64,000 nt of DNA from a virus. The stretch lies in IMG/VR virus record IMGVR_UViG_3300015263_000969, positions 1 through 64,000 of that record, one strand, 5' to 3'. The translations under genes and the position numbers were made by a program. The notes beneath the pieces are model-generated. The model saw nothing but the letters and a program-made list of their open reading frames with translations, was not told the origin of the DNA and made no database searches. Shown in pieces: positions 28,339-53,842 of this stretch. How positions within the stretch are numbered: the first letter of the stretch is position 1; every line of letters begins with the position of its first letter.

Positions 28339-29175
28339 CTACACCTGCACCACGACGCCGTATCCGGTCGGCGCGGATGGGTTGCTGGTTGGAAGTGCCT
28401 CATGACCGCCGAAATTCGCGACGTTGTTGAACAATTCAAGACATCCTCGCTGACCATCAAGCGTGTGGTCGCATCCTGCGAAGACGTCGACGGCATCGCT
28501 CGTAGCCAGCAACCTGAACGGGACGTCGATCGTGATGGTCGTGCCGCTCTGAGTGATCACGGTTCGCGCGTCGCCGTCAGACGTCCGCGTGATCTTGCCA
28601 TCCCGAGCCCAACTATCCGGCTTGCCGCTGATCGACGACACCGTGATCGTGAGCCCATCAGACGAGATTGCTGTCACGGTCGGCGAGATCTTGAACGAGT
28701 CCTCATCGACGCCGCACCCGGGACTGTATAACTGATGCGGACAGTTTCGTTGCGCGACCAGCACGGGGAACTGACGGTCGAATACTTCGTCGCTGCGATT
28801 GGGTACGCGCAGACGCACGAGCACGTCCTCGGTGGACAAGCTGCCGATGTACCCCTTCCAGAGCTGCCGAGCCTCTGGGTCGTCTTCGTGGAAGGCGCGC
28901 AGCGTGACAAGCGCGTCGATCGGCGGAATGCCGTTTGCGCGCAGAGATTCGGCAAGCGCGTTGTCGCGCGCGATCGTGATGGTGACTTCGCGGACCTTTC
29001 CGACCTGCGCCAGGGTCCGCGGCCCGCAACTGATCGCGACAGCGGCATACGTCTGCCCACCGAACACGACGTCCTCATCGTGAGACGTGAAGCGATACGT
29101 CTCGGTCGGCAGTTCGATGTCGTAGATCTCGATCGGGCGTTGGTCGGTGCCGGTCTCACGGGCCGCGAAGGACAT
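28339..29175 (-). CDS. BR0599/DUF2163-like tail hub protein
   Basis: The 278-residue protein matches the phage BR0599 family: CPHQLYSPGCGVDEDSF near residue 144 and a C-terminal FAGCDHTLDGQRGC...NNVANFGGHEALPTSNP. The conserved cysteines probably hold metal or disulfides. It lies between the tail-tip gene and the upstream tail genes, as in GTA-like tails. ATG at 29175 is preceded by late promoter 1 (29181-29213). Confidence 0.85.
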   Translation of the reverse strand: MSFAARETGTDQRPIEIYDIELPTETYRFTSHDEDVVFGGQTYAAVAISCGPRTLAQVGKVREVTITIARDNALAESLRANGIPPIDALVTLRAFHEDDPEARQLWKGYIGSLSTEDVLVRLRVPNRSDEVFDRQFPVLVAQRNCPHQLYSPGCGVDEDSFKISPTVTAISSDGLTITVSSISGKPDSWARDGKITRTSDGDARTVITQSGTTITIDVPFRLLATSDAVDVFAGCDHTLDGQRGCLELFNNVANFGGHEALPTSNPSAPTGYGVVVQV

Positions 29176-29180
29176 ACCTC

Positions 29181-29213
29181 ACGGTCGCCCGCGGTGCCGT
29201 GGTGGGGCGATTT
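29181..29213 (-). promoter_or_regulatory. Late promoter 1
   Basis: On the minus strand AAATCGCCCC (29213-29204), 17 bp, GACCGT (29186-29181), then five bases to ATG 29175. Conserved with six other sites before structural genes. Confidence 0.7.
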
Positions 29214-29221
29214 GTCGCCGG

Positions 29222-29575
29222 TTACGCAGTGCGGATCGACCCGGTCCGCACGAGCGCATTCCACGCCTCAGCCACATCGCGGCGCGCGGCGCGGCACCCG
29301 GCCTCGAGCGCGAGGCGGCAGCGCCACGCGAGATCGCGCTCCTCCTGCGTCATGCTCGGCAGCGCGGTGAGCCACGCCTGCACTTGGCGGTTCTGGGCGG
29401 GGGTGAGCGTGTCGGCGTCCGTACTCGGGAGGCCGAGGAGCGCGGCGGCGCGGAGGCGCTCGGCCGGGAGGACCGGCGCGCTGGGGTGGTCATCGCAGCC
29501 ATCGGCGGGATCGGCGTCGTAGCCGCAAACCTGGCAGACGTGGACCGTGCGGGTGAGCGGGGCAGCGGTCGGCAT
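29222..29575 (-). CDS. Zinc-ribbon protein, paralog of the 18.4-kb gene; leaderless
   Basis: The 117-residue protein opens with VCQVCGYDADPADGCDDHP and LPAERL, closely matching the product at 18414-18878. The rest is helical, with SMTQEERDLAWRCRLALEAGC. ATG at 29575, two codons after the first in-frame ATG, is the predicted transcription start of the class I promoter at 29582-29610. It stands alone as a single-gene unit between the hub gene and the accessory genes. Confidence 0.65.
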   Translation of the reverse strand: MPTAAPLTRTVHVCQVCGYDADPADGCDDHPSAPVLPAERLRAAALLGLPSTDADTLTPAQNRQVQAWLTALPSMTQEERDLAWRCRLALEAGCRAARRDVAEAWNALVRTGSIRTA

Positions 29576-29581
29576 GAGCAC

Positions 29582-29626
29582 AGACTAACGCCGTACCTCC
29601 GAATCGTCAAGATATTCGTGAGGCAC
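29582..29626 (-). promoter_or_regulatory. Promoter with class I operator (site B)
   Basis: On the minus strand TTGACG (29610-29605), 17 bp, TAGTCT (29587-29582), then six bases to ATG 29575. GTACCTC (29593-29599) and GAGGCAC (29620-29626) form the outer inverted repeat; CGAAT and ATTCG form an inner one. Related sites are at 31206 and 37428. It overlaps the end of the upstream regulator gene. Confidence 0.7.
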
Positions 29627-30088
29627 GATGTCGATCCGCCTAACCTTGCGGCACTCCTCGGACATCCCGGCCGCGCGCCGGGCGATCCGCCGCAGGTGCG
29701 AGAGCAGCGGCACGCCCTCTGGGCATGGATCGGCGGTCAGGAGCGACCGAACCCACGCCGAGATCCCGCCCTCGCTTGCGACACGCTCGTACGCAGCGCG
29801 CTCCTCGTCGGACGCTCGCAGGCTCACCGCATGGCCCGGGGCGAGCCGCACGGAGAGGAAGTGCGGGCGCTGTACCGCGGCGCGGGGGCGCCCGGGCTTT
29901 CGCCGCGCGCCGCCGGCTACGAGCTTGCCGCGCGCCTGGCGCACCGCCTCACGCGTCACCTTGTACTGGCGCCCGGCCTCGGCGTCGGAGATGTCGGCGC
30001 CGATCGCGAGGAGCGCGGCGGCTCGCGCGCGCTCGGCTGGCGCGGCGGGGCGGAGGAGCGGGTCGAGCGGGAACTTCGGGCTGGTCAT
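29585..30088 (-). CDS. HTH plus RHH-like regulator candidate
   Basis: The 167-residue protein has an N-terminal HTH-like segment (AIGADISDAEAGRQYKVTREAVRQARGKL), a basic linker, then a VSLRASDEERAAYERVASEGGISAWVRSLL strand-helix-helix segment. It could be a DNA-binding protein acting on the class I operators that surround it; this is inference. ATG at 30088 has GGGGAG upstream and overlaps the previous stop; the longer frame is rejected. Last gene of the unit beginning at 31187. Confidence 0.6.
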   Translation of the reverse strand: MTSPKFPLDPLLRPAAPAERARAAALLAIGADISDAEAGRQYKVTREAVRQARGKLVAGGARRKPGRPRAAVQRPHFLSVRLAPGHAVSLRASDEERAAYERVASEGGISAWVRSLLTADPCPEGVPLLSHLRRIARRAAGMSEECRKVRRIDIVPHEYLDDSEVRR

Positions 30089-30348
30089 GGGTAGCTCCCC
30101 GGTCGCCCGACATGGATCGCAGTAGCGATGCCGCGCTCCTCGGTCATGAGGTAATCGAGGCCGGCGCGCTTGAACGCGCAGCGGCCCAGCTCGTAGGCGC
30201 CGTATGTGCCGACCGCGGACGGGATCGACGCCGTGAGCCAGCCCGGGCGATCGGGACACGGGCACCACACAAGTGGGATTGGCCAGTCGATAGCCGGCGG
30301 GCTGGCTGCGTAGCTGGCGATGAGGCTGTTCAGGTACTCGGGTGTCAT
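30085..30348 (-). CDS. Small hypothetical protein
   Basis: The 87-residue protein has a CPCPDRPGW loop and a C-terminal IATAIHVGRPGS. ATG at 30348 follows AGGAT and the stop overlaps the next ATG. Not recognised. Confidence 0.55.
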   Translation of the reverse strand: MTPEYLNSLIASYAASPPAIDWPIPLVWCPCPDRPGWLTASIPSAVGTYGAYELGRCAFKRAGLDYLMTEERGIATAIHVGRPGSYP

Positions 30349-30385
30349 GTCGGTCCATCCTGCGCCATCGGGCGCGGTTGCAAGG

Positions 30386-30634
30386 TCACGCGGTCTTCGC
30401 GGACGCGATCCGGGCGGCAACCTCTGCGGTCCACGCCTCCCAGTTCGTGTGCGCGGCGCGCCGGGTCGCGGGGCCGAGGCCGCCTCCGACACCGGCGGAC
30501 GCGTCGATGTCTACGGCGGTCATCCCGTCTCGGGCTGCGTTGTCGGGCGTGGTTAGCCCGTCGGCGAGCATCCACACCGCCCGGCGCGCGGCACGAGCGA
30601 TCCAGCGCTCCTTGGCGATGTCGGGGCGGCGCAT
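30386..30634 (-). CDS. Small helical protein
   Basis: The 82-residue Ala/Arg-rich protein is helical and not recognised. ATG at 30634 overlaps the stop of the upstream gene and is preferred to the in-frame ATG four codons earlier. A 37-bp gap follows before the next start. Confidence 0.55.
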   Translation of the reverse strand: MRRPDIAKERWIARAARRAVWMLADGLTTPDNAARDGMTAVDIDASAGVGGGLGPATRRAAHTNWEAWTAEVAARIASAKTA

Positions 30635-30882: not shown

Positions 30883-30905
30883 GGGGGGCTCCGTAATGGG
30901 GTGGG

Positions 30906-31187: not shown

Positions 31188-31194
31188 GTGTCTA

Positions 31195-31240
31195 TTGATA
31201 GCAACGTACCTCGCAAACGTCAAGCATGAATCTGAGGTAC
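31195..31240 (-). promoter_or_regulatory. Promoter with class I operator (site A)
   Basis: On the minus strand TTGACG (31223-31218), 17 bp, TATCAA (31200-31195), then seven bases to ATG 31187. GTACCTC (31206-31212) and GAGGTAC (31234-31240) are a perfect inverted repeat with 21 bp between. Confidence 0.75.
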
Positions 31241-31257
31241 GCGAGAAGTGAGGCTAA

Positions 31258-31755: not shown

Positions 31756-31805
31756 TGCCTCTAAAGTGCCAGTTGCCTCAATAGTCCTCAGCGCTGCCTC
31801 AAAAG
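31756..31805 (+). repeat. Subterminal repeats, left end
   Basis: TGCCTC-type 11-mers start at 31756 (TGCCTCTAAAG), 31774 (TGCCTCAATAG) and 31795 (TGCCTCAAAAG). They are probably transposase-binding sites. An inverted pair AAAGTGCCAGT (31763-31773) / ACTGGCACTTT (31909-31919) overlaps the first. The remaining left end to 31977 holds no gene. Confidence 0.7.
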
Positions 31806-31941
31806 GTCGCGGGAGTGACCTGGCCGCGGTTCTCCGACGAGGATCGAGCCGCGCGCGTTCCGCTTCCCACTGTCGGACTGACCGAGTAGCGTAATCGGCT
31901 CACGCGCCACTGGCACTTTCGCCACGGCGCAAGCGGCCCGA

Positions 31942-31959
31942 CCGGTGCGTCAACACCGG
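31942..31959 (+). promoter_or_regulatory. Hairpin before the first transposon gene
   Basis: CCGGTG (31942-31947), a six-base loop and CACCGG (31954-31959) precede the AGGAG ribosome site of the first cargo gene. Possible operator or RNA hairpin. Confidence 0.4.
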
Positions 31960-31977
31960 CCGAGCCTAGGAGCCACG

Positions 31978-32151
31978 ATGCGTAGAGCACATCGTAACCC
32001 CCGGCAGAGGCTACAGAAGTCCCGCACCACCTACCACCCCTCCATCGACGTCATCCTGGACGTCCTGCGCCGGATGGACCGCCGGCAGGCCATGCGCCTG
32101 ATCGAGGCCGTCGCTGCGCTGGTGAGCGCCACGGCGAAGGGAGGGCGGTAG
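31978..32151 (+). CDS. Small basic transposon protein
   Basis: The 57-residue protein has a basic N-terminal arm (MRRAHRNPRQRLQKSR) and a helical remainder (VILDVLRRMDRRQAMRLIEAVAALVSA). ATG at 31978 follows AGGAG by five bases. It overlaps no known family and lies two bases before the next gene, so is probably coupled to it. Confidence 0.6.
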   Translation: MRRAHRNPRQRLQKSRTTYHPSIDVILDVLRRMDRRQAMRLIEAVAALVSATAKGGR

Positions 32152-32153
32152 CC

Positions 32154-32936
32154 ATGCTCGACGAGACCGCCCTGCGCGCCTACCTCGAGCGCATCCTCGG
32201 CTGGTCTGCCGGGCAGGCAGCGGCCGTCGAGAGCGCGCTCGGGGCGCTCCGGCTGGCCCTCCTCCACGGCGTGACCATCGTCCTCCTCGGGGAGTCGGAC
32301 CTGGCGCCCATCGCCCGCGAGCTGCACCGGCGGGCGTTCGGCGCGGGCCAGCCCTTCGTCGTCGCGGACCCGCGGCGCGGCGACGTGCCGGCCACCGCCC
32401 GGACGCCCGCGAGCCGGGCCACCGGGCTCGGCGCCCTCCACGCGGCCCGGGGCGGCACCCTCGCCCTGCGCCTGCGGCGCCTGCCCGAGGACGTCTCGAT
32501 GACGATCGGCCTGGCGCGCGAGCCCGGGGCCGACGTGCGCGTGATGCTCCTCGGGGACTCGCGGCGCGACCGGCACCCGTTCGTGAGCCCGGCGCCGATC
32601 ATGGTCCCCTCGCTGGACACGCGCGCCGACGAGCTGGGGCGCATCGTCGACGAGTACGCGGCTGACGCTACGCGGGCGCTCGGCGTGGGGCCGGAGCGCT
32701 TCACCGCCTCCGATCGCGCCTGGGTCCTCCAGCACGCGGCCGAGAGCCTGCCCGTCATCGAAGCGGCGACCCAGCGGCTCGTCGCCCTGAACATGTCGCG
32801 GACCACCGACGAAGCCTCCGCCGCCCTCGGCCTCCGCGGGTCCACGCTCCGGCGCTGGCGGATCCAGCGCATCCGGCGCAGCAAGGGCGGCGGCGGCGTG
32901 CGGAGCGCCGGGCGCTGGATGCGGAGGGCGTCGTGA
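32154..32936 (+). CDS. Degenerate sigma-54-activator-like protein lacking Walker A
   Basis: The 260-residue protein follows the layout of a bacterial enhancer-binding AAA+ domain: LLGES near 44-48, FVVADP near 70, AARGGTLALRLRRLPED near 100-118, VRVMLLGDSRRD near 130, PSLDTRADELGRIVDEY near 160 and a C-terminal helix-turn-helix ending LRRWRIQRIRR. But the GESGTGKE nucleotide loop is replaced by GESDLAPI and the GAFTGA segment is missing, so ATP hydrolysis and sigma-54 contact are unlikely. It may be a DNA-binding scaffold or regulator of the element. Assignment is by motif order only. Confidence 0.55.
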   Translation: MLDETALRAYLERILGWSAGQAAAVESALGALRLALLHGVTIVLLGESDLAPIARELHRRAFGAGQPFVVADPRRGDVPATARTPASRATGLGALHAARGGTLALRLRRLPEDVSMTIGLAREPGADVRVMLLGDSRRDRHPFVSPAPIMVPSLDTRADELGRIVDEYAADATRALGVGPERFTASDRAWVLQHAAESLPVIEAATQRLVALNMSRTTDEASAALGLRGSTLRRWRIQRIRRSKGGGGVRSAGRWMRRAS

Positions 32937-33256
32937 ACGAGCGCGCTCGCGAGTTCTGCGCCGCCATGACCCGGTGGCTCGACGCATGCGGCTCGGGCGT
33001 GGTCCGCTCGGTGAGCGTCCAACGCGTCGGCACCTGGACCGTCATCAAGGTCGGCGCCACGAGCGACGAGACCGCGCGGCTCATCGCGGCCGAGATGGGG
33101 CTCACCCAGGCGCGCACGCCGCAGAAGGGCCGCGTCTGGTGGAGGGAGTACGTCGCCACCACCGAGGGCGCCACGATCCTCGTTGCCGGGCCGACGCACA
33201 GCTTCGAGGAGCCGGAGGACTGGCCGGGGCGGCGAGTGGGGACGTTTCCGAGCTAA
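32933..33256 (+). CDS. Transposon hypothetical protein
   Basis: The 107-residue protein is mixed alpha/beta, with VQRVGTWTVIKVGATSDETARLIAAEMGL in the middle. GTG at 32933 overlaps the preceding stop. It ends about 70 bp before the repeat array. Not recognised. Confidence 0.6.
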   Translation: MNERAREFCAAMTRWLDACGSGVVRSVSVQRVGTWTVIKVGATSDETARLIAAEMGLTQARTPQKGRVWWREYVATTEGATILVAGPTHSFEEPEDWPGRRVGTFPS

Positions 33257-33328
33257 AACGAAGAACGGCGCGCTCGTCGTCGCGGCCAGGTCGGTGCATG
33301 ACGTCGGTGCTGCTCGCTGCCGATCTGG

Positions 33329-33486
33329 TTCTGCACCACCTGCGGAGCTTGGCTCGGCCTGCACCTGCTGCGCACTCCGGTTGTACCTGCATGTACTGCA
33401 TGTTGGAGGTGGTCCTGCACCTCCTGCGGATGTCGCTTGATCCTGCACGTCCTGCCGTGTAATGTTCCTCCTGCACCTCCTGCAGG
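33329..33486 (+). repeat. Six 18-bp repeats at exact 28-bp period
   Basis: Repeats near TCCTGCACCTCCTGCGGA start at 33329, 33357, 33385, 33413, 33441 and 33469, exactly 28 bp apart; the third is the most divergent (ACCTGCATGTACTGCATG). The last overlaps the leader and ribosome site of the ParA-like gene. This is the arrangement of a centromere, iteron or operator array rather than of CRISPR. The rest of the 33257-33495 gap holds no gene. Confidence 0.9.
33437..33463 (+). promoter_or_regulatory. Candidate promoter of the ParA-like gene inside the repeat array
   Basis: TTGATC (33437-33442), 15 bp, TGTAAT (33458-33463). It is interleaved with repeats 5 and 6, so a protein bound to the repeats would control it. 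Confidence 0.45.
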
Positions 33487-33495
33487 AGTTACCGA

Positions 33496-34539
33496 ATGTC
33501 GACAGGTTTGCAAAAGATCATGGATACTTACGATCGCGTAATCGAAGAGGGGCACGTTCAGGACAAGGGGCAGGGGTTCCGGTCCTATGCGATCTCCAAC
33601 CTCCGCGGCGGCGTGGGCAAGTCGTCAATCGCCTTCAACCTGGCGTACGAGGTCTCTCGCACGAACTCGCTGCTCACGGCAGATGTCTGCCCTCAGACGA
33701 ACTTCACCGAGATGCTACTCGGTGGCTACAAGACGACGGCGAACATCTACGACGCGCTGAAGCCGGTCATCCTCGGACCGGCCTTCGGCGAGGAGCCGGA
33801 GGATATCTCCTACCGGATCAGCCAGCACTGTGATCCGTTCAAGGGCGGACGGGCCGCGTTCGCGATCCCCGGCAACGCGGAGCTGTTCGCCTTCCCGTCG
33901 ACGCTCTACGCGCAGCTCGACAAGGCGTGGGGAATGAACAACCGGACCGCGGTTGCCAAGCTCCTCCGCGGTCTGAAACAGATCCTGGACAGGGAAGCCA
34001 AGGACAAGGACGTGAGAGCCGAGAAGATCTTGATCGACACTTCGCCCTTCTATGCCGGAGGCACGCATCTCGCGTGGTGTGCCGTCGAAGCGCTCATCGT
34101 GCCCGTGCGCGTCGACGAGCATTCGGTCGAGTCGCTGGGCCTCCTCTTCAAGATGCTCTCGGACCCGGAACGCGACTTCCTGCAGTGGAACGAACGGGCC
34201 GGTGACCTGCCAGGCCCGAAGATCGCCGCGATCGTGATGACGATGGTCGGCGCGAAGAACCAGAGAAAGAACACGCCAGACCGCGCCTCCACCATGTACA
34301 TCGAGCGCGCCCTCGAACTGGCGGAGGCGCACGCGGATCTCTTTGCGGTGGATCCCAGCGATGCCTTCGTGATCACCGACGACTTCCATTCGGCGGGCCG
34401 CATCAGCGGCGCGAAGCGGAAACCGATCTCGATGCTGGAGGTCGGCAGCTTTCATACCGTCGAGAACAGGCGCTTGCAGGTGAACCGCTCGGTGACGAGG
34501 TACCAGAAGGAGCTGCAGTACCTCGCCAGCGTGATCTGA
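33496..34539 (+). CDS. ParA/MinD-like ATPase
   Basis: The 347-residue protein has a deviant Walker A at residues 37-44 (RGGVGKSS), ADVCPQ at 62-67 in the place of the usual DxDPQ switch, and Walker B ILIDTSPF near 180. ParA proteins bind DNA non-specifically as ATP dimers and move cargo. Two signature residues differ: Arg replaces the first Lys of KGG, and the second Asp of DxDPQ is Cys. ATG at 33496 follows AGGAG by six bases. The six-repeat array lies directly upstream, as in par loci, but no ParB is visible; a regulator at 35835 or another protein could act as adaptor. Confidence 0.8.
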   Translation: MSTGLQKIMDTYDRVIEEGHVQDKGQGFRSYAISNLRGGVGKSSIAFNLAYEVSRTNSLLTADVCPQTNFTEMLLGGYKTTANIYDALKPVILGPAFGEEPEDISYRISQHCDPFKGGRAAFAIPGNAELFAFPSTLYAQLDKAWGMNNRTAVAKLLRGLKQILDREAKDKDVRAEKILIDTSPFYAGGTHLAWCAVEALIVPVRVDEHSVESLGLLFKMLSDPERDFLQWNERAGDLPGPKIAAIVMTMVGAKNQRKNTPDRASTMYIERALELAEAHADLFAVDPSDAFVITDDFHSAGRISGAKRKPISMLEVGSFHTVENRRLQVNRSVTRYQKELQYLASVI

Positions 34540-34566
34540 TCTCCCTTCACGAGAGGAATCGCCACC

Positions 34567-35832
34567 ATGGACGCTGCTCTCGACGCTCGCCATCAGCGCG
34601 CTCTTGCTCTCGTCGCCAGCAAGCGCGCCAGCATCAAGCACATGGCGGGCGCGCGGTGGCTGGTCCCGTCGCAGTCCAGCGCGAGCGGCGGCTACGTCGT
34701 CGATGCAGACGCGAACACGTGCTCCTGCCCGGACCACGAGGAGCGGGGCGTGCGCTGCAAGCATATCTGGACCGTGGCCATCATCCGGCAGGAGATCTCC
34801 ATGCCCGACGGGTCGGTCGTGATGACCGAGACCACGGTCGCCGCGGCGGTCACCGCGACGGTTACCACGCCGCCCCGCGTCACCTACAAGCAGGCGTGGC
34901 CGGCGTACAACCGCGCCCAGGCCGAGGAGGGCGCGCGCGTCCAGCTTCTCCTACGCGCGCTCTGCGATGGGATCGTCGAGCCCCCGCAGGCGAAGGGCCG
35001 GCCCCGTCTGCCGCTCGCTGACGTCGTCTACAGCGCCACGATGCAGGTGTTCGGCGGCATGAGCGGGCGCCGGTCCACGAGCGACACGCGCGCGCTGGCC
35101 GAGCGGGGTCTCGTGCGGCGGGCGCCGAGCTACAACTCCACGTTCCGCTACCTCGCGGGCGCCGAGCTGGCGCCGCTCCTCAAGACGCTGGTCCACGAGG
35201 CGGCGGCCCCGCTCCGGGCCGTGGAGACCACGTTCGCGACCGACTCCACCGGGTTCGCCATGAACACCTACGCGCGCTGGTTCGACGAGAAGCACGGGGG
35301 CGAGAAGCGGTGCCAGCGCTGGATCAAGCTCCACGCGCAGGTGGGCACGGTGACGAACGTGATCGCGTCCGTCGAGGCGACCGAGAGCAACGTGGGGGAC
35401 GTCGTGATGCTCGCCCCGCTCCTCGCGTCTGCGGTGGAGCGCGGGTTCACCGTGCGCGAGCTGAGCGCCGACAAGGCGTACCTCGCGAACGACGTGCTCA
35501 CGGCCATCGAGGCCGCGGGCGCGGTCCCTTACATCCCCCTGAATGCCAACAGCCGGCCGACGGGCAAGAGCGCGGCGTGGCGCCGCCTGTACCACATGTT
35601 CGAGGCGCGGAACGACGAGTTCCTGGCTCACTACCACCGGCGCTCGAACGCCGAGAGCACGTTCAGCATGGTCAAGCGCAAGTTCGGCCCATCGGTGCGC
35701 GCCAAGACCCCGCCCGCGCAGATCAACGAGGTGCTGCTCAAGTGCATCTGCCACAACCTCTCCGTCCTCGTGCACGCGATCCACGAGTTGGGGATCGAGC
35801 CCTCCTTCTGGTCGCGCCTGGAGGCCGCGTAG
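34567..35832 (+). CDS. DDE transposase with N-terminal SWIM zinc finger
   Basis: The 421-residue protein has a SWIM finger at residues 52-66 (Cys52, Cys54, Cys64, His66, CxCx9CxH) and a C-terminal RNase H-like transposase domain of IS4/IS5 type, with Asp226 (ATDSTG), Asp302 (LSADKAY) and Glu363 (RRSNAESTFSMVKRK). All three catalytic residues are present, so it may be active. The SWIM finger probably binds the ends. ATG at 34567 follows GAGAGGA. It lies between the ParA-like and regulator genes of the element. Confidence 0.88.
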   Translation: MDAALDARHQRALALVASKRASIKHMAGARWLVPSQSSASGGYVVDADANTCSCPDHEERGVRCKHIWTVAIIRQEISMPDGSVVMTETTVAAAVTATVTTPPRVTYKQAWPAYNRAQAEEGARVQLLLRALCDGIVEPPQAKGRPRLPLADVVYSATMQVFGGMSGRRSTSDTRALAERGLVRRAPSYNSTFRYLAGAELAPLLKTLVHEAAAPLRAVETTFATDSTGFAMNTYARWFDEKHGGEKRCQRWIKLHAQVGTVTNVIASVEATESNVGDVVMLAPLLASAVERGFTVRELSADKAYLANDVLTAIEAAGAVPYIPLNANSRPTGKSAAWRRLYHMFEARNDEFLAHYHRRSNAESTFSMVKRKFGPSVRAKTPPAQINEVLLKCICHNLSVLVHAIHELGIEPSFWSRLEAA

Positions 35833-35834
35833 CG

Positions 35835-36131
35835 ATGCCCCGTCGTGACCTGTCCCTCGACGAGCAAGCGAACGTCCTCGCGGCCCTGCGCATGCTGCGC
35901 GTCAAGCTCGGCGGAGCCAACTGGCTCAACGTGGAGCGCGCGCTTCCCATCGCGCACAGCACGCTCGCCGAGATCCTCGCCGGGCGCTCCGAGGTGAGCG
36001 CCGCCGTGGCGTTCCGCGTTGCCAAGGTGCTCGACGTGTCCCTCTACCACGTGCTCTCGGGCGAGGCGCTGGGGGACGTCTGCAAGCACTGCGGACGGTC
36101 TGCGTCCGAGCCATCATCGCGGATGGGCTGA
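35835..36131 (+). CDS. XRE-like helix-turn-helix regulator
   Basis: The 98-residue protein contains an XRE-type HTH over about residues 12-70 (WLNVERALPIAHSTLAEILAGR, FRVAKVLDVSLYHVLSGE) and a C-terminal CKHC knuckle. It begins two bases after the transposase stop, so the two are cotranslated. Likely a repressor of the element or the adaptor that recognises its repeats; both are inference. Confidence 0.7.
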   Translation: MPRRDLSLDEQANVLAALRMLRVKLGGANWLNVERALPIAHSTLAEILAGRSEVSAAVAFRVAKVLDVSLYHVLSGEALGDVCKHCGRSASEPSSRMG

Positions 36132-36275
36132 GCGCTGCTCTCGCCTGCGCCGCTCGTACCGCTCTCGCATCGCGATGAGCCACGCGGGCACCGGCGGCGG
36201 GGGCGACGGCGGGTCGCGATACGGGTCGGCCACCGAAAGATGATGCCCGGGCCGATCCCGGGCCGATCCCAACGC

Positions 36276-36306
36276 TGCCTCAAAAGTCGGGCCGCTGCCT
36301 CAAAAG
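36276..36306 (+). repeat. Subterminal repeats, right end
   Basis: TGCCTCAAAAG occurs at 36276-36286 and 36296-36306, each followed by TCGG, in the same orientation as the left-end copies. The remaining bases 36132-36327 hold no gene; GGCCGATCCCGGGCCGATCCC at about 36250 is a short direct repeat. Confidence 0.75.
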
Positions 36307-36339
36307 TCGGCGCTCCGACGGGGTTCTGAGGCAAAGCCA

Positions 36340-40088: not shown

Positions 40089-40355
40089 TCAGAGCTCGAC
40101 AGCGCCGCCGAACAGCGTCACCTTGTCGAGGACGCCACCGGTCGTGCCCTCGCCATACGCCGCGTTGATGGCGGCAACGGCGGCATCGCGGATCGCTTCG
40201 TTGATCGTCGCGGCAAGCGCCCCCATCGAGAAGGTGACAGTCCAGTTCGCGAAGTTGCTGTCCGGAAGATGGGCCGACCCACTGAGGCTGACGTTGCCGC
40301 CGCCAGGGAAGCCGAGCGCGTTGCTGTCCGTGGTGAAAACGATGATGTTCGCCAT
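40089..40355 (-). CDS. Small tail-module protein, leaderless
   Basis: The 88-residue protein is beta-rich at first (MANIIVFTTDSNALGFPGGGNVSLSG) and helical later. ATG at 40355 is chosen because late promoter 2 ends 29 nt upstream, the same distance as at the other late genes; GTG at 40373 with GAGG upstream is an alternative. Possibly a minor tail component. Confidence 0.55.
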   Translation of the reverse strand: MANIIVFTTDSNALGFPGGGNVSLSGSAHLPDSNFANWTVTFSMGALAATINEAIRDAAVAAINAAYGEGTTGGVLDKVTLFGGAVEL

Positions 40356-40361: not shown

Positions 40362-40394
40362 ACGATCGCTCACAGCGCCACCTCGGGGCGATTT
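40362..40394 (-). promoter_or_regulatory. Late promoter 2
   Basis: On the minus strand AAATCGCCCC (40394-40385), 17 bp, GATCGT (40367-40362), then six bases to ATG 40355. It overlaps the last codon of the tape-measure gene. Confidence 0.65.
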
Positions 40395-43539: not shown

Positions 43540-44323
43540 TGGCCGCCGTTCATTAGGGCTCGCGCAGCCGCTGCGCGTTCCATGCGATCAGCGTCTAACT
43601 TCTGGATGACCGCTTTCAGCAGCATGAACAAATCACGGTCCAGTCCCTCATCGCTGGCCCAGGCGCGAAGCGCATTGTATGGCGTGGACCCTTGCACACC
43701 GAACCCAATCTGCCGGTCTCCTTCTAGGTCACGCATGCATTGGATGACCATCGCCATTGCGCTGTCGGTATCTGGGGCCGCGGCGAGTATCTGCTGCTCG
43801 TGCCCAGGGAGGGCGGGGCGCGCGTGGATTCGCATCTGCCGACGGATCGGCGCGGCCTGCTCCTCCCAGCGCAGCCACGCCGCTACCCGTTTCCCAGGGC
43901 CTCGACAGAACCGACCGAATCGCGAAAGTGGGCCGCCGGCATCGCATAGGCAAACGCCCTATCGATGACGTCGGGATTGTCCTTCGCGATCTTCGTCAGC
44001 AGTTCCTCGCCAGCGCCCGGCGAGTATGGGACCGGCGTCTTGCGATCTGCCGCCAACACATTCTCCCAGCCCTCGATGACCGTCTCGGCGAACACCGGGA
44101 TCAAGTGACGGCGCAAGACTCCCAGCGGGATCTCATCGCCGTAGCTCTTGAGCACGTTGTCGATCTTCCGTCGCTTGTTCATGAACGCATGGTTGCTCTC
44201 GCCGGCGTGCCGCATGATCAGCACGATCGGCTCGGCGCCACGCGCGTAGAATCCGATGAGTGTGGCGCGAACAGTTCCATGAGGCTTCTGCGCCGAGAAA
44301 TCGAGATCGTCGAAGTTGGACAT
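43536..44323 (-). CDS. Tail assembly chaperone GT, made by -1 frameshift
   Basis: The upstream frame (43883-44323, 146 residues, MSNFDDLDFS) ends GAG GCC CTG GGA AAC GGG TAG. The heptamer G GGA AAC (43895-43889 on the minus strand) is a classic slippery site in the right phase, two codons before the stop. A -1 slip continues into the frame that ends at 43536, giving RVAAWLRWEEQAAPIRRQ and then MRIHARPALPGHEQQ. Lambda G and GT likewise guide tape-measure assembly. Late promoter 3 lies 28 nt before ATG 44323. Confidence 0.85.
43883..44323 (-). CDS. Tail assembly chaperone G-like product
   Basis: This is the 146-residue unshifted product of the gene above. It is the usual predominant partner of the frameshifted protein. 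It is acidic at the N-terminus and helical, with no membrane segment. Identity rests on the position between tail tube and tape measure, and on the shift site. Confidence 0.8.
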   Translation of the reverse strand: MSNFDDLDFSAQKPHGTVRATLIGFYARGAEPIVLIMRHAGESNHAFMNKRRKIDNVLKSYGDEIPLGVLRRHLIPVFAETVIEGWENVLAADRKTPVPYSPGAGEELLTKIAKDNPDVIDRAFAYAMPAAHFRDSVGSVEALGNG

Positions 44324-44329: not shown

Positions 44330-44361
44330 ATCATCCGTTGAGTTGCCCGTCGGGGCGATTT
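44330..44361 (-). promoter_or_regulatory. Late promoter 3
   Basis: On the minus strand AAATCGCCCC (44361-44352), 16 bp, GATGAT (44335-44330), then six bases to ATG 44323. The stretch 44362-44445 upstream holds no gene. Confidence 0.65.
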
Positions 44362-44445: not shown

Positions 44446-45948
44446 CTACGACGCCGGGTGATATGCGAACACCGACAGCGACGAGACGATGTTGGTCGTC
44501 GGATCGCGGAACCCCGGAACGTCGAGCGAGCACATCACAGCGGTGTTTGCGGCGTACGTGCGCGCACCGCCGCGGGCCGCCACGAGCGGCATGTCGATGT
44601 GGAACGCGCCGTCCGCGTTGCGCATGCAGACATCGAACCAGCAGGAGTCATTGGCCCGCAGCGTCACCGGGATGCCAGAGGTGTTGTAGTAAACCTCCAT
44701 CGAGAGCGATGGCTGCACCTTGCCGTAGTCCATGTCCACGGCACCGAGCGTGCCCTGGATGTCGCGCGGCTTGATGTTGTGCTCCATCGTCCACTTCCAC
44801 GAGTTGACCTCGGTGGTGAGGTTCGTGGAAGACGAGTCGATCACGAAGCGGGGCGCGCCGACGAGTCCGCTCGAAGTCTGGTACAGGTTCGCGGCCATCG
44901 GTCGCCGCGGCGAGTCCGCCCCCGTCGCGCGCGACGCTGCGAGGACCGGATCGTCGATGTCCTGCGCGCAGAACGTCATCGTCGCGGTGATCTTGCTCTC
45001 GAGCGGGGCGTCGAGCTCCAGCGTCTTGAGCGCCATACCGCTCGCGTAGGTGTACGTGGCGACGCCGCCAGCGCCGGCGCCAAGCTCCTCGAGCTCTCCG
45101 TGCAGCGTCGGCTCGAGATAGTCGGCGTGGTCCAGCGACACGTTGCGGTACCAACGGCTGAAGAGGAGCCGGATCGTCTTGCCGGATCCGTTGTCCGCGG
45201 AGCCCGGCGTCCACGTGTGATGCTCGAGCGTGATCAGGTTCGCCGCGATCGACACGATGCGTGCGCGGCCGTTGTATGCCGTGGTCGCGAAGCTGTTGGC
45301 GGCATCGCCATCGCCGACCTTGATCGTCTGCCCGACGTTCAGGCCGAGCGTCGTGAAGTCCAGCGTCGTCGAGATCAGGTTGCCGCTGCTGTTGAACTGG
45401 ATATCGCCACTGTCACCCTGCACGCCGGCAACTTCGACGGTCGCACCGGTCGAGGTGGCGACGGTCTCGGCGGTGAGCCCCGAGGCCTTGATCTCGGTGG
45501 CCGTCGAGGCGGCGGCCACGACCTTCAGGCCATTGTTGGCCGCCGTCGCGAACCCCTTCGCATGAATCAGGAGCCCGGCGGTCAGATCGCCGAGCGCAGC
45601 GACGGTGTAGCCCGTGCTCGTGACCGCAGTCGGTCGGTACAACGACTGCCCCTTGTTGCCAGCGTGCTTGGCGGCCGACCGGAAGATCGACGTCGCGATG
45701 ATGTCGACGAGATCCTTCGTCAGGTCGTGCGTGATCTTGGGCGTACCGTCGAGCCCGACGACCTCACCCTTCTCCATCGTGGCGTACTTGCTCAGTGGGT
45801 CGCGCTCGACGGTCTGGAACTTCGATACCCAGTCCTGGATCCCGCCAGGGTTCGGCTGCACCTGGACCCAGCCGCTCGTGGGCTGCGTGCCGAACGACGA
45901 CTCGGGAGCGAGCAGAAGCGTGACCGCCTCGGAGAGAACCTTGGTCAT
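44446..45948 (-). CDS. Major tail tube protein
   Basis: The 500-residue, Thr/Ala/Gly-rich beta protein begins MTKVLSEAVTLLLAPESSFGT, a typical start of long tail-tube proteins, and contains Ig-like segments (VQGDSGDIQFNSSG, VKVGDG). Its length exceeds the core tube fold, so insertion domains on the surface are likely. ATG at 45948 is preceded by late promoter 4 at 29 nt and by GAGG. It is followed by the G/GT gene. Confidence 0.8.
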   Translation of the reverse strand: MTKVLSEAVTLLLAPESSFGTQPTSGWVQVQPNPGGIQDWVSKFQTVERDPLSKYATMEKGEVVGLDGTPKITHDLTKDLVDIIATSIFRSAAKHAGNKGQSLYRPTAVTSTGYTVAALGDLTAGLLIHAKGFATAANNGLKVVAAASTATEIKASGLTAETVATSTGATVEVAGVQGDSGDIQFNSSGNLISTTLDFTTLGLNVGQTIKVGDGDAANSFATTAYNGRARIVSIAANLITLEHHTWTPGSADNGSGKTIRLLFSRWYRNVSLDHADYLEPTLHGELEELGAGAGGVATYTYASGMALKTLELDAPLESKITATMTFCAQDIDDPVLAASRATGADSPRRPMAANLYQTSSGLVGAPRFVIDSSSTNLTTEVNSWKWTMEHNIKPRDIQGTLGAVDMDYGKVQPSLSMEVYYNTSGIPVTLRANDSCWFDVCMRNADGAFHIDMPLVAARGGARTYAANTAVMCSLDVPGFRDPTTNIVSSLSVFAYHPAS

Positions 45949-45954: not shown

Positions 45955-45987
45955 AGCGTCGGGCCAGATGGGCCGACGGGGCGATTT
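45955..45987 (-). promoter_or_regulatory. Late promoter 4
   Basis: On the minus strand AAATCGCCCC (45987-45978), 17 bp, GACGCT (45960-45955), then six bases to ATG 45948. Confidence 0.7.
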
Positions 45988-49170: not shown

Positions 49171-49875
49171 TCAGCGAGCGGTACGAGAGGAGCGGCGCTC
49201 CTGGTCATACGCGGTATAGAGCGCGTCGCCCTGTGCGGTTGCGAGGAACGCCTGGGTGGCCTGCGCCGGCGTCTGCCCCTTGGCCTGGGCGAACGCGGAA
49301 AGCGCGACGTTGAATGCCTCGAGCGCACTCTCGTTACCAGCGTCGGTGTCCTCGTTGATCCCGGGCGCTCGCCCAGCCGCCTGAACGAACGCGCTCGCGC
49401 CCTGGAGCGCCTTGAGCGACTCCTCGAGAAGCGCCGGATCGCCGGCACCGCGAAGCGCTCGGACGATGTTGGCGTGCACGAGCGCAGAGCCGGGAAGGTT
49501 CGGGATTCGCGTCGCGCAGATCGCAGCGATGTCGTTCTCGTCGTTCGTGGATCGCGCCTTGGCGAGCGCATCCTCCTGGAGAGCGAGCTGCTTGGCCTGC
49601 GCTTCCCCCTGCTCCGCGAGACGCCTGGCAAGATCGCCATGGCTCGCGCGAACCGTGACCCCGGTCAGTTCGCCCGTGAACACCACCGGGTCGGCGTCGA
49701 GCGCGGCGCGTACGGCCGCCTCGCGGACCGTCGCGCTCTCGAGACAGAAGCCCTCGGCGGCCTCGGCGTCGAGCTTGGCAGCGTGCGCCCGATGCGACTC
49801 GGGCAGGGTCAGCGCCGCCATAAGTGCCTTGCGCATGGTGGCGAGCTTTGGGGTCTGATCGGGCTGGTCGGCCAT
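49171..49875 (-). CDS. Internal in-frame scaffold protein
   Basis: ATG 49875 (MADQPDQTPKLATMRKALMAALTL) has CGGAGAG nine bases upstream and lies 25 bases after late promoter 5, inside the protease gene. It would make a 234-residue coiled-coil scaffold sharing the C-terminus of the fusion, as in lambda C/Nu3. Prediction from promoter, ribosome site and known phage practice. Confidence 0.6.
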   Translation of the reverse strand: MADQPDQTPKLATMRKALMAALTLPESHRAHAAKLDAEAAEGFCLESATVREAAVRAALDADPVVFTGELTGVTVRASHGDLARRLAEQGEAQAKQLALQEDALAKARSTNDENDIAAICATRIPNLPGSALVHANIVRALRGAGDPALLEESLKALQGASAFVQAAGRAPGINEDTDAGNESALEAFNVALSAFAQAKGQTPAQATQAFLATAQGDALYTAYDQERRSSRTAR

Positions 49876-50799
49876 CTGGGTACTCTCCGGTTGTGAGTCC
49901 ACGGTAGGCGTGGCGGGTGAGGGGGGCGATTTGTCGTTGTCATCCGCGAACGCGCGCACGGCCGCGGCCGATCCATCGTCGGTGTCATCGTCGATCGAGA
50001 ACGAAGCCGAGAGCGTCGCGCGTAGCTGGTCCATGCCAGCAGTCGGCACGCCGGGAACCGGGACGCATGAGGTCTCGATCAGCTCGGCAGCGGTGTAGAT
50101 CCAGCGGACCGTGAGCGTTCCGGTTCCGTCGCGGCGGCGCTCGTATCGCTTCTTCCCGGCGCCGTCGGTCAGTTCAACGAGCTGGTCCCCGGGCCAGTGG
50201 TAGCATTGCGACATGACCGGCGCATCGCACACCGAGCACAGCACCGGACCCGTCGGGATCCAGCCGATGCTCACGGTCGTCATGTTGCCGCGCAGGTACA
50301 TCGCGATCGCCCACGGCTCGGTGAGGCGCGCGACCTGACGGATCTCGTAGTGCCCATCGCTCGGCACCTCGGTCCCACTCTCGACGAGGGTCCCGCCACG
50401 CGCCATCGAGTCGCGCTGCTCGTGGTCCCGCAGGAACGGCTTGCCGGCGCCGGTCTTTCCGATCGCGCGCATCGAGGCATTGCGGAAGCCGACGTAGTTC
50501 CAGTTGTCGACGCCGGCTTGCTGCTCGTACGCCAGCATCGGCACGTCGACCTCGCAATAGCCAAGCTCGCCAGCGTCGATCATGCGGAGCAGCTCGTCGC
50601 GCAGTTCCGCGGTCATCGGCACGCGCTTGCCGTCGGTCAGCTTCGGACTGTGAACCAGAACCGACGAAGTCGCAGCCGGTCCCTGCGCGAGCAAGAGTGG
50701 CTCGAGCGTCCGCTCGGCGCGCGTCAGCATCGGCGCCGCCTTGAGGATCTGCTCGAGGGTTGGCTTCGCCTTACCGGCGCGTTCGATGGTGGTGGTCAC
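49171..50799 (-). CDS. Prohead protease-scaffold fusion
   Basis: The 542-residue protein has an N-terminal domain similar to prohead proteases (FLRDHEQRDSMARGGTLVESGTEV near 122-145 and MTTVSIGW near 174-181) with a CSVC/QCYHW zinc-like insertion. A C-terminal helical scaffold follows, with coiled coils (RLAEQGEAQAKQLALQEDALAKARS). GTG at 50799 has no Shine-Dalgarno and lies 28 nt after late promoter 6. An internal start at 49875 makes the scaffold alone. It directly precedes the decoration and capsid genes. Confidence 0.75.
   Translation of the reverse strand: MTTTIERAGKAKPTLEQILKAAPMLTRAERTLEPLLLAQGPAATSSVLVHSPKLTDGKRVPMTAELRDELLRMIDAGELGYCEVDVPMLAYEQQAGVDNWNYVGFRNASMRAIGKTGAGKPFLRDHEQRDSMARGGTLVESGTEVPSDGHYEIRQVARLTEPWAIAMYLRGNMTTVSIGWIPTGPVLCSVCDAPVMSQCYHWPGDQLVELTDGAGKKRYERRRDGTGTLTVRWIYTAAELIETSCVPVPGVPTAGMDQLRATLSASFSIDDDTDDGSAAAVRAFADDNDKSPPSPATPTVDSQPESTQMADQPDQTPKLATMRKALMAALTLPESHRAHAAKLDAEAAEGFCLESATVREAAVRAALDADPVVFTGELTGVTVRASHGDLARRLAEQGEAQAKQLALQEDALAKARSTNDENDIAAICATRIPNLPGSALVHANIVRALRGAGDPALLEESLKALQGASAFVQAAGRAPGINEDTDAGNESALEAFNVALSAFAQAKGQTPAQATQAFLATAQGDALYTAYDQERRSSRTAR
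49901..49932 (-). promoter_or_regulatory. Late promoter 5 (internal)
   Basis: On the minus strand AAATCGCCCC (49932-49923), 16 bp, TACCGT (49906-49901). It lies within the coding frame of the protease-scaffold gene (NDKSPPSP), so coding constraint alone could explain part of it, but the TACCGT hexamer at the right distance supports a promoter. Confidence 0.6.
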
Positions 50800-50805
50800 G
50801 CTCGC

Positions 50806-50837
50806 AGGATCGCGAGCGGAGGCGGGCGGGGCGATTT
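50806..50837 (-). promoter_or_regulatory. Late promoter 6
   Basis: On the minus strand AAATCGCCCC (50837-50828), 16 bp, GATCCT (50811-50806), then six bases to GTG 50799. No ribosome site precedes that GTG. Confidence 0.7.
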
Positions 50838-51314: not shown

Positions 51315-51318
51315 GGGC

Positions 51319-51555: not shown

Positions 51556-52158
51556 CTAGAACGCCTCGCTCCGCTCGTTCCGGTCGCACTCGTCGAAGAA
51601 CGAGTCGCTCTCCGTCCCCGTCGACACGCCGGCCACGCTCAACCCGACCGCACCGCCCGAGCCCGCGAGCCACTGCCCGATCAATTCGTGGACCGCCGTC
51701 GGCAGCTTCGTCGCCGTGCCCGCGCGTCGCGACGTCGAGCCGAAAAACTCCAGACGCGCCGAGCCGGCCCCCATGCTCTTGATGTTCTGGCCCTGGTCCG
51801 CCTGCGCCGCAGCGTCCGCGTCGGCAACCAGGATCGCGACCATCTCGAACGTTGCACGTGAAACGCGGTCGAGTTGGTACGCGTCGCTGGCATCATCGCC
51901 GTTCTCGTCCTCGAGGCCATCCCGCGGAAACACCAGCGTGGTCCCGTCGGCCCAGGCTGCCGTCCCCTGCCAGCGCTGGCGGTCGATGTAGCGTGTCGCT
52001 GCCACGAGGTACCTGGCGCGCGAGTTCGCCGACAGCGCGGCGTAGGCGTCCGGCCCGGCTCCGACGAGGCCGAGCAGGTAGTCGTCGCATGCGGATGTAC
52101 CGCCGTAGACCTCGACCGCAGCCGAGGACCCGGTGAGCGTGACACTGTAGAGCGTCAC
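51556..52158 (-). CDS. DnaT-like head-tail adaptor
   Basis: The 200-residue protein has a DDYL-type N-terminal domain, ARYLVAATRYIDRQRWQG near residue 48 and TLVFPRDGLEDENGDDASD near 74, which matches phage proteins annotated as DnaT-like ssDNA-binding/adaptor proteins between portal and neck. GTG at 52158 overlaps the previous stop. Probably the first ring below the portal. Confidence 0.7.
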   Translation of the reverse strand: MTLYSVTLTGSSAAVEVYGGTSACDDYLLGLVGAGPDAYAALSANSRARYLVAATRYIDRQRWQGTAAWADGTTLVFPRDGLEDENGDDASDAYQLDRVSRATFEMVAILVADADAAAQADQGQNIKSMGAGSARLEFFGSTSRRAGTATKLPTAVHELIGQWLAGSGGAVGLSVAGVSTGTESDSFFDECDRNERSEAF

Positions 52159-52325
52159 TGGACACGGCTCCTGGCGGGTCGATCAGATACCCGCTCATCC
52201 GCGCGGCCAAAGATGCCGACGAACGCATCGAGCGAGACCGGATCGGGGCCGGTTGGCGGCACGACCGCGACGTGCACGCCGAGACGAGCCCTGGTTGTCA
52301 CGCACCGGCTCTTGATGGCCCTCAT
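52155..52325 (-). CDS. Small hypothetical protein
   Basis: The 56-residue protein fills the gap between the portal and the adaptor gene. ATG 52325 overlaps the portal stop, and its TGA overlaps the next GTG. Too short for long-frame detection. No motif; function unknown. Confidence 0.5.
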   Translation of the reverse strand: MRAIKSRCVTTRARLGVHVAVVPPTGPDPVSLDAFVGIFGRADERVSDRPARSRVQ

Positions 52326-53803
52326 GACTCCGCGTCCTCTCCGGGCTCCTCGCCCTCGTCATCATCGGCCGGCTCCTCATTGGCCGGCTCGTCCTCGGAC
52401 TCCTCGCTCCGCACGTCAGGCACGCTCCCGCCGCCTTTGGCCGCCCGCCACGCCGCCAGATCCTCCTCGTCCGGTTCAGGGGCCGCCGGCAGTTCCTCGC
52501 GCGCGCGGAGGACGTTCTCGACCGGATCACCAGGCTTCAGCTTCGCGTCGGCGAGCAGCTTGAGCATCTCGGCCGCCGCCTTCGCGCTCGTCCGCGCGAC
52601 GCTCTGGTGCTGGAGCGCTGGCATGAGCCTCTCGTCGGCGTAGCCGTTTCGCGCGAGCAGGTCGGACACGATATCGCGCTCGGCGTCGTCGGTGAGGTCA
52701 TCCAGTGTGGCGTCGATTCGCGTCGTGAACAGGCTCGACTTGTCGGTGCTGGCGCCGTAGGCGCCGCTCGTGCCGGACTTGCCCATGAGCAGGAACTCAG
52801 CGGACAGGACGATCGCCAGCGCGTGGTTCAGCTCGTCGAGCGCCTTGCCAAGTTCCGGGATCGAGCCGATCTGCTGGCGCACGGTCTCGATCGACCACTC
52901 GAACGTTCCGGCCGCCGGCCGCCGGGATCCGTCAGGCTCCTCGGCGTAGTAGGGCAGGGAGTCGAGGAGCAGCGAACGATTCGAGGTGACGACGCGGTTC
53001 TCGATCAGATCGCGAATCGGAGCGGTCTGCGACAGGACGTAGGCGCGGATTCCGGACACATCGTCGGCTGACAGCCCCCCACCGCCCTCGCCGACCTGCA
53101 TCGTCGCCTGCTGCACGAGCTTGCTCAGCGGCGCGCGTCCGAGCGGGATCCCGTTGCAGTCCGTATCAAACGCGATGCCCTGGAGCTGGCGATAGCGCGC
53201 GTAGATGTCGGCGACCTCGACGAGATGACGGAGCAACCCGACGCCTCGCGGGTCATCGCCAAGTGCGCCCTCGACGCTGTAGAACAGGTCGTCGCGATCG
53301 ATCAGCCATTCCTTGCCGGTCCGCGTCCGCTGCGCAACGCTCGTCCACGGAGCAGACTCGTCGGGCTTGATCCAGCGCTCGATCGACCACTGCGGCCGGT
53401 GTGCCAGTTCGGCGAGGACAATCCGCCCCGCATAGTCGCGACGCCACCCCTTGGCGTGCATCGAGAACCCACGGATGCGCTTGACGGCTTGGCGCTTGAC
53501 GACCGACCTCCACCGAGTCGGCATGCGCGCGTCGAGGAGTCCGTCCTGCACGAGCTCGGCGGCGGCCACGGCGTCCAATCCACCCTTCGGATTCGGCGAC
53601 GCGCTCCACTTCGCGCTGCCGGCCAGGTCGAGCCATATCCCGACGGCCGCGGCTACGACGGTCACGTTTGCGAGCAGGTTGTCGTAGGTCACCCATCGCG
53701 TCGCACCGGTGAGCTGTGACTTCTTCTCGCCCGTGTCGAGCAGGAAGCCGCCATAGCTAACCTGTCCGTCGGAGCCAGGGGCCTTGGTCGCGCGTTCGGG
53801 CAC
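52322..53803 (-). CDS. Portal protein (DUF935-like)
   Basis: The 493-residue protein has the features of Mu-type/DUF935 portals: LVQDGLLDARMPTRWRS, YAGRIVLAELAHRPQWSIERWIK, DDLFYSVEGALGDDPRGVGLLRHLVEVADIYARYRQLQGIAFDT. It ends in an acidic, disordered tail (about the last 70 residues). It forms the dodecameric ring for DNA entry and exit. GTG at 53803 has no Shine-Dalgarno and lies 29 nt after late promoter 7. Confidence 0.85.
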   Translation of the reverse strand: MPERATKAPGSDGQVSYGGFLLDTGEKKSQLTGATRWVTYDNLLANVTVVAAAVGIWLDLAGSAKWSASPNPKGGLDAVAAAELVQDGLLDARMPTRWRSVVKRQAVKRIRGFSMHAKGWRRDYAGRIVLAELAHRPQWSIERWIKPDESAPWTSVAQRTRTGKEWLIDRDDLFYSVEGALGDDPRGVGLLRHLVEVADIYARYRQLQGIAFDTDCNGIPLGRAPLSKLVQQATMQVGEGGGGLSADDVSGIRAYVLSQTAPIRDLIENRVVTSNRSLLLDSLPYYAEEPDGSRRPAAGTFEWSIETVRQQIGSIPELGKALDELNHALAIVLSAEFLLMGKSGTSGAYGASTDKSSLFTTRIDATLDDLTDDAERDIVSDLLARNGYADERLMPALQHQSVARTSAKAAAEMLKLLADAKLKPGDPVENVLRAREELPAAPEPDEEDLAAWRAAKGGGSVPDVRSEESEDEPANEEPADDDEGEEPGEDAES

Positions 53804-53809
53804 GTGATG

Positions 53810-53842
53810 ACGGTAGGGCGCCGGGGAAGCACGGGGCGATTT
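53810..53842 (-). promoter_or_regulatory. Late promoter 7
   Basis: On the minus strand AAATCGCCCC (53842-53833), 17 bp, TACCGT (53815-53810), then six bases to GTG 53803. Divergent from the rightward promoter at 53858-53887. Confidence 0.75.

Follow-up and report, generated by a model that had tools for sequence, protein, structure and literature searches.

Phage-specific late promoters and leaderless phage messenger RNAs (mRNAs) are both known kinds of element. In P2-type phages, small zinc-finger proteins of the Ogr/Delta kind activate the late promoters. The particle and lysis gene promoters of phage YuA are reportedly sigma54-dependent, and cluster K mycobacteriophages are said to carry conserved start-associated sequences at a fixed place before many start codons. 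Leaderless transcripts have reportedly been seen in Thermus phage P23-45. The middle and late promoters of this phage are read by the host RNA polymerase (RNAP) once it has been altered by phage proteins (PMC7403470). In the middle promoters of phage T4, a MotA box of the sequence (a/t)3TGCTTtA is centred at -30, at 12 ± 1 bp from the sigma70 -10 element (PMC2988021). Here we describe a two-part motif that precedes late genes in a 64-kb window, the whole stretch of DNA analysed, of the 65,439-bp IMG/VR virus record IMGVR_UViG_3300015263_000969 (G+C about 68%). Its seven copies probably constitute a phage-specific class of late promoters for mostly leaderless mRNAs.

A two-part motif ahead of late genes

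The window contains seven exact copies of the 10-mer AAATCGCCCC, all on the minus strand and none on the plus strand, against 0.029 expected under a second-order Markov model, making it the most over-represented 10-mer of the record. With one mismatch allowed, nine matches are found, compared with 3.2 ± 1.7 in shuffled sequences. A preliminary description of this DNA had located the seven copies, each followed after 16-17 bp by a hexamer, and its positions, spacings and hexamers (Table 1) all proved accurate. The six start codons, two of them GTG, indeed lie 28-29 nt past the 10-mer and 5-6 nt past the hexamer. It had also stated that two of these genes lack a ribosome site; the absence stands and the count was too low, as a simple test of the window from -17 to -4 detected a Shine-Dalgarno (SD)-like tetramer before none of the six. 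A GAGG before 29175 is too near the ATG to count as an SD. No promoter resembling the sigma70 consensus (TTGACA/TATAAT-like) was found between 39.5 and 59.4 kb of the window.

The full signal reads [A/T/G]AATCG[A/C]CCC, followed after 16-17 bp by xAnnnT. Within six phage genomes, 43 copies of the 10-mer were picked (the genomes being those of this phage and of relatives described below), regardless of the hexamer or of what comes after. An xAnnnT at a spacer of 16 or 17 is present in 41 of the 43, compared with 5.4% of random positions. The distance from this hexamer to the start codon is 4-9 nt in 35 of the 41 copies and exactly 6 nt in 22; since 6 nt is the commonest distance for both spacers, the start codon tracks the -10-like box and not the upstream box. 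Spacers and flanks of the copies share no sequence, so that it is the boxes and not their surroundings that are conserved.

Transcription usually initiates on a purine (+1) that follows a pyrimidine (-1). A larger set of 70 copies has an ATG or GTG at 37-42 nt in 58 cases, and a pyrimidine occupies -1 at 51 of these 58 leaderless-distance sites. SD-like tetramers precede 2/27 motif genes versus 125/248 of the remaining genes predicted in these phages (p = 8e-6), a comparison that uses gene starts predicted in this analysis. An SD is present at most sites with a more distal start (seen in G000, G001, G005, G008, L173, L177 and L207). The rule seems to be that a start codon at the start site goes without an SD, and that one further down has it, an arrangement that comes naturally with a promoter and is hard to reconcile with a translation signal.

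The seventh copy, at 49932, is internal to the protease-scaffold gene, in agreement with the preliminary description. Fifty-seven nucleotides further on stands an in-frame ATG with GGAG in front, which is expected to be the start of the scaffold protein. Judged from its placement, the copy is a putative internal scaffold promoter nested in the protease gene, at the same place as in relatives. The internal scaffold site has the 10-mer in five of the six phages (G001 39462, G005 20976, G006 19864 and G008 8381 in the relatives), and the sixth, G009 (= L055), has a weaker box at 14299 and an SD before the ATG. The same kind of nested arrangement with an SD is seen in G001, G005, L173, L177 and L207; in G006 and G008, an in-frame start lies at leaderless distance from the nested site.

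Table 1 Late-module features and motif sites of the window.
Feature	Coordinates	Strand	Remarks
Portal promoter, -35-like box AAATCGCCCC	53833..53842	minus	
Portal promoter, -10-like TACCGT	53810..53815	minus	portal GTG 6 nt on, at 53803
Protease-scaffold promoter, -35-like box	50828..50837	minus	
Protease-scaffold promoter, -10-like GATCCT	50806..50811	minus	GTG 6 nt on, at 50799
Internal scaffold promoter, -35-like box (seventh site)	49923..49932	minus	
Internal scaffold promoter, -10-like TACCGT	49901..49906	minus	
Tail-tube promoter, -35-like box	45978..45987	minus	
Tail-tube promoter, -10-like GACGCT	45955..45960	minus	ATG 6 nt on, at 45948
Tail-assembly-chaperone promoter, -35-like box	44352..44361	minus	
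Tail-assembly-chaperone promoter, -10-like GATGAT	44330..44335	minus	ATG 6 nt on, at 44323
Promoter at end of tape-measure gene, -35-like box	40385..40394	minus	
Promoter at end of tape-measure gene, -10-like GATCGT	40362..40367	minus	ATG 6 nt on, at 40355
Distal tail promoter, -35-like box	29204..29213	minus	
Distal tail promoter, -10-like GACCGT	29181..29186	minus	ATG 5 nt on, at 29175
Candidate regulator, double zinc-finger protein	58671..59279	minus	upstream of terS/terL, behind no motif copy
Terminase	58277-56334	minus	
Portal protein gene (Portal_Mu), predicted leaderless	52322..53803	minus	Pfam PF06074 1.7e-07; phrog_113
Protease-scaffold fusion gene, predicted leaderless	49171..50799	minus	542-aa open reading frame (ORF); role inferred from position and nested start
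Nested in-frame scaffold gene	49171..49875	minus	ATG 49875, SD GGAG at 49885-49888
Tail tube gene (Phage_tube_2), predicted leaderless	44446..45948	minus	PF18906 3.6e-15
Tail assembly chaperone gene, predicted leaderless	43883..44323	minus	phrog_313 3.6e-10
88-aa gene after tape measure, predicted leaderless	40089..40355	minus	
Distal tail gene (BR0599/phiJL001 gp84), predicted leaderless	28339..29175	minus	PF09931, PF09356
J-like gene, next after distal tail gene	22889-28336	minus	
Promoter entries are predictions.

These sites belong to a siphophage-like late module in the right-hand part of the window, on the minus strand. Besides the genes of Table 1, the module encodes a decoration or scaffold-like protein, the capsid protein (phrog_1005) and the tape measure protein (PF20155); Pfam and PHROG searches gave no name to the protease-scaffold gene. 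The isolate kin of the capsid and portal proteins, at 21-34% identity, include YuA-like Pseudomonas phages (KPP23, RSP) and Roseobacter, Rhizobium and Arthrobacter phages, with the KPP23 capsid at 26%. The terminase also resembles that of Myxococcus phage Mx4. Terminator-like sites are no commoner than in shuffles.

Several further features were noted. Set into the late region at 31795-36308 is a plus-strand module with GCTGCCTCAAAAG at both edges (three copies, at 31795, 36276 and 36296). It encodes a possible Fis-like helix-turn-helix (HTH) protein, a SWIM/DDE transposase and a ParA-like ATPase, and looks like an inserted mobile or partition module. Its 260-aa protein at 32154-32936 (plus strand) appears by eye to consist of a worn-down NtrC-type AAA domain and a Fis-like C-terminal HTH, and has no Pfam match. 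A palindrome, TCGTCGACGA, lies at 15237, 32644, 38829, 40502, 54291 and 64452 with no obvious placement (12 counted over both strands versus 1.2 expected).

Relatives and probable host

The preliminary description had named beforehand, as a refuting outcome, a lack of motif enrichment before structural genes in relatives. That outcome did not arise: each diverged relative has four to nine copies, for the most part ahead of genes for portal, protease, scaffold, tail tube, tail chaperone, distal tail and lysis. When viral contigs were scanned with the whole pattern, nine were returned, of which one, L011 (G001), proved to be a relative; L010, L014 and L015 were rejected as records without motif enrichment. 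In G001 (44 kb), most late proteins share 34-71% identity with their window counterparts (blastp). It carries seven copies, five of them exact, on one strand, before the genes for portal, protease, scaffold, tail tube and chaperone and before two others. Allowing either A or C at position 7 of the box brought in G005 (nine copies in 55.6 kb), G006 (seven), G008 (nine by our count, ten with one more mismatch allowed) and G009 (four), along with the fragments L052, L054, L163, L173, L177, L199 and L207. A reversed control pattern matched once each in G006 and G009 and not at all in G005, G007, G008 and G010.

The sites are conserved in synteny at matching genes even where the proteins are no more than 25-65% identical (the late proteins of G005, G006, G008 and G009 show about 23-47% identity to those of the window), and their orientation follows the downstream gene. 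The portal box has counterparts in G001 (GAATCGCCCC), L052, G005, G008, G009 and contig C119 of the bacterial assembly described below; the protease-scaffold box in G001 (40312), G005 (20160), G008 (7505) and contig C303 of the same assembly; the tail-tube box in G001 (35106), G005 (28779), G006 (12938) and G009 (18059); and the chaperone box in G001 (33471), G005 (31338), G008 (14876) and G009 (19598). The box at the end of the tape-measure gene recurs at a similar place in G005 (34465) and G008 (18151), and the distal tail box at a site before the homologous gene of contig C491 in that assembly. Divergent back-to-back copies precede tail-tube-region genes in L163 (2469/2487) and G005 (28755/28779; L217). 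The leftward set of the G005 pair comprises about six genes, which form a block on the other strand.

Divergent from the portal gene lies a small conserved gene (53895-54254, plus strand), before which no near-motif was seen in the window; its counterpart in L052 (6118, minus strand) has a near-motif of its own, AGATCGCCCC, at leaderless distance.

Used as bait, the capsid protein found nothing in viral contigs, the portal found nothing in species genomes, and the BR0599 gene found distant contigs only, without the motif. The motif is absent from Myxococcus phage Mx4 and from segments of KPP23, RDJL6 and RHph_Y5A.

Scanning one genome per species (about 85,000 species) with the strict motif gave 74 scattered single matches in all phyla, close to a rough chance estimate of about 60, and we judged them to be chance, with one exception. 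The metagenome-assembled genome (MAG) 'Deltaproteobacteria bacterium DP_38' (12.2 Mb, soil) carries phage contigs of the motif group, whose portal, capsid and tail tube proteins are 59%, 59% and 68% identical to those of G009. The motif stands before portal, protease, chaperone and distal tail genes on four phage contigs of this MAG. When the -10 box was loosened, two non-phage matches appeared in the 12.2 Mb, both on contig C729; they lie inside an unrelated proline-rich reading frame and were put down to chance. The phage contigs are C641, C540, C119, C95, C303 and C491 (L239, L240, L249-L252), with at least one phage split over several contigs; two copies of the zinc protein discussed below indicate that there are probably two related phages. 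NCBI places the name 'Deltaproteobacteria bacterium' under Myxococcota, an assignment that for DP_38 follows from the name and is subject to possible binning errors. The motif phages are probably myxobacterial. Among 379 genomes of the DP_38 phylum, four have one strict match each; this rarity, together with the near-restriction of the signal to phage contigs, argues against the motif being a host promoter type in common use there.

The promoter reading, a candidate factor and rival explanations

The preliminary description had seen in the sites a phage-specific promoter class for leaderless structural mRNAs. The -10-like half-site, the pyrimidine at -1, the SD pattern, the relatives and the near-confinement to phage contigs support this view, all at the level of sequence. 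We put at about 0.82 the probability that the seven sites form a phage-specific, mostly leaderless late-promoter class on which a host sigma factor acts at the -10 box and a phage factor at the upstream box. In the mechanism that we infer, the upstream box would lie at about -38 to -29, and the -10 box would present its A at -11 and its T at -7 to a sigma70-family sigma of the host. The normal -35 contact would be taken over by a phage-specified protein, possibly the zinc protein encoded upstream of terS. Transcription would start at or beside the A/G of the start codon, rendering most of these mRNAs leaderless; where the start codon lies further down, chiefly at the nested scaffold gene, the mRNA would have a leader with an SD. 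Several promoters on the same strand could then provide separate amounts of the portal, protease, scaffold-decoration-capsid, tail-tube, chaperone-tape-measure and distal-tail units.

Several observations weigh against this reading. G+C-rich -10 boxes such as GACGCT and CACCGT are poor by usual standards, and in a few copies xAnnnT or a good downstream gene is missing (G008 4132 and 8381, G006 8599 and 11363, L054); the copy at G005 4593 stands before a 37-codon ORF only. The search pattern for several relatives included the start codon, which favours leaderless sites in the first match of each contig and not in the others. L052, L163, L173, L177, L199 and L207 are fragments. Most portal-type relatives picked on protein alone are without the motif, which therefore belongs to one clade. 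The zinc protein is tied to the motif by co-occurrence, for which shared ancestry could suffice.

A search for a phage sigma factor or activator had been proposed with the preliminary description; of the two, a candidate activator emerged. In the six phages, some of whose sequences are fragments, the two sigma families searched gave no match to Sigma70_r2 and a single sub-threshold match to Sigma70_r4_2 (E 0.005), in a small Cro-like protein of G005. The candidate, put forward by co-occurrence, is a double zinc-finger protein of 202-246 aa, whose gene, upstream of terS/terL, is the non-structural gene common to all motif phages reaching that region, with counterparts in G005, G006, G008, G009, L052 and L207 as well as in the DP_38 MAG. 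Of 20 portal-bearing contigs that extend at least 3.5 kb upstream, all four with clear motif sites (three phages) have it and none of the 16 others does, and it was not found in Mx4 or in the KPP23, RDJL6 and RHph_Y5A segments. The gene stands directly behind no motif copy in any phage, a placement to be expected if the factor is produced earlier than the late gene products.

Seven cysteines, arranged in two clusters, are invariant in the zinc protein, as is an R.R..G...RG patch. The protein matches no Pfam family above the cut-off, and six homologues showed no Ogr/Delta match up to E = 1; one homologue matches phrog_144, an HNH endonuclease, at 4e-5. A search with a two-sequence alignment refound L052 alone. 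The predicted fold is of middling confidence (pLDDT, predicted local distance difference test, 70), and a structure search returned no match below E = 0.9. Other early genes considered as regulators (a weak HTH at 29585-30088, an HTH_3 at 35835-36131 and the possible Fis-like end at 32154-32936) were set aside, none being common to other phages. We tentatively raise the possibility, at somewhat less than even odds, that the zinc protein founds a new family of phage transcription factors, which would bind AATCG[A/C]CCC in place of sigma region 4 and redirect a (probably) myxobacterial RNAP to the leaderless late promoters, including the nested scaffold/capsid one.

The main rival is that a host alternative sigma, for example an extracytoplasmic function (ECF) sigma with a very small regulon, reads the box as its -35 element and is exploited by the phages with no factor of their own. 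In its spacer of 16-17 bp and its position at -38 to -29, the box matches an ordinary sigma -35/-10 promoter and differs from the T4 MotA box, and it is this normal distance, alongside the negative sigma searches, that keeps the rival in play. On the other hand, the signal in DP_38 is almost confined to phage contigs, strict matches in its phylum amount to one in each of 4/379 genomes, and no clade was enriched in the species-genome scan, the ACCC form having been searched in the phylum set and a few genomes. We regard a host sigma as unlikely, at about one chance in five.

Less probable still is a phage-encoded sigma-like factor, unrecognisable in sequence, that reads both boxes. The two-part motif does resemble a complete sigma promoter, and several phages encode divergent sigmas; the sigma searches described above speak against it, as does the fact that the zinc protein is the sole shared unassigned gene of suitable size seen.

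Action of the motif in RNA, as a translation signal or leader element, would fit the strong preference for places before start codons and the missing SD. However, box and xAnnnT keep their 16-17 bp spacing at sites whose start codon is shifted 25-37 nt downstream and preceded by an SD, a leaderless mRNA would not include a motif located at -38, and divergent back-to-back copies exist (G005, L163); we consider this explanation very improbable. Equally little speaks for repressor operators, packaging or replication repeats, or remnants of mobile repeats that happen to lie near genes: phages do carry such repeats and the 10-mer is exactly identical within one genome, but flanks and spacers are unconserved, positions are gene-specific across genomes and orientation is that of the downstream gene. 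Chance combined with sampling, which does describe the single matches in unrelated contigs and genomes, is refuted by the excess of exact copies in the window and by the second half-site in 41/43 copies.

Significance and comparison with known systems

A literature search for the motif sequence yielded no phage paper, and one on leaderless phage late promoters yielded nothing of this kind. New, as far as we can tell, are the motif, its systematic coupling to predicted leaderless virion genes, the putative promoter nested before the scaffold and the candidate zinc factor. If the promoter reading is true, it provides a readable late-transcription code for a phage group known from metagenomes only, one probably linked to soil 'Deltaproteobacteria' with large genomes, whose phages have hardly been studied. 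With structural genes consistently preceded by promoters that would start transcription on the start codon itself, the leaderless translation of a virion module becomes open to direct test. That the putative nested scaffold promoter persists in deeply diverged phages suggests that scaffold levels are set by promoter dosage as well as by internal translation starts. The motif can moreover help to identify fragments of these phages, to join those that belong together and to assign hosts, as for DP_38.

Among the described systems, the YuA-like phages are linked to this locus through their capsid and portal proteins, which are among the kin of those of the window; none of the sites fits the -24/-12 element of sigma54 promoters, TGGCAC-N5-TTGCW. 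The P23-45 promoters differ in being of the extended -10 type, without a conserved upstream box. Cluster K mycobacteriophages share the principle of a conserved phage sequence at a fixed distance from start codons. Their sequences, however, overlap the ribosome site a few bases from the start, whereas the box described here lies 28-29 nt away and the SD is absent.

A small phage zinc protein acting as late activator, as proposed for our candidate, is the same idea as Ogr/Delta. The candidate differs in having two cysteine clusters of other spacing and no Pfam match to Ogr/Delta, and the box is located at -38 to -29 compared with about -55. In the T4 middle promoters, which work through sigma appropriation by AsiA and MotA, a phage box likewise replaces the -35 element, an xAnnnT -10 is kept and the class is switched on together (PMC2988021). 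No MotA/AsiA homologue was noticed in the motif phages, no search having been aimed at them. The window's box, AATCGMCCC, is centred near -33.5, at 16-17 bp from the -10, and serves structural, mostly leaderless genes. With a box 4-5 bp further from the -10 than in T4 and of unrelated sequence, these sites stand apart from the T4 middle class.

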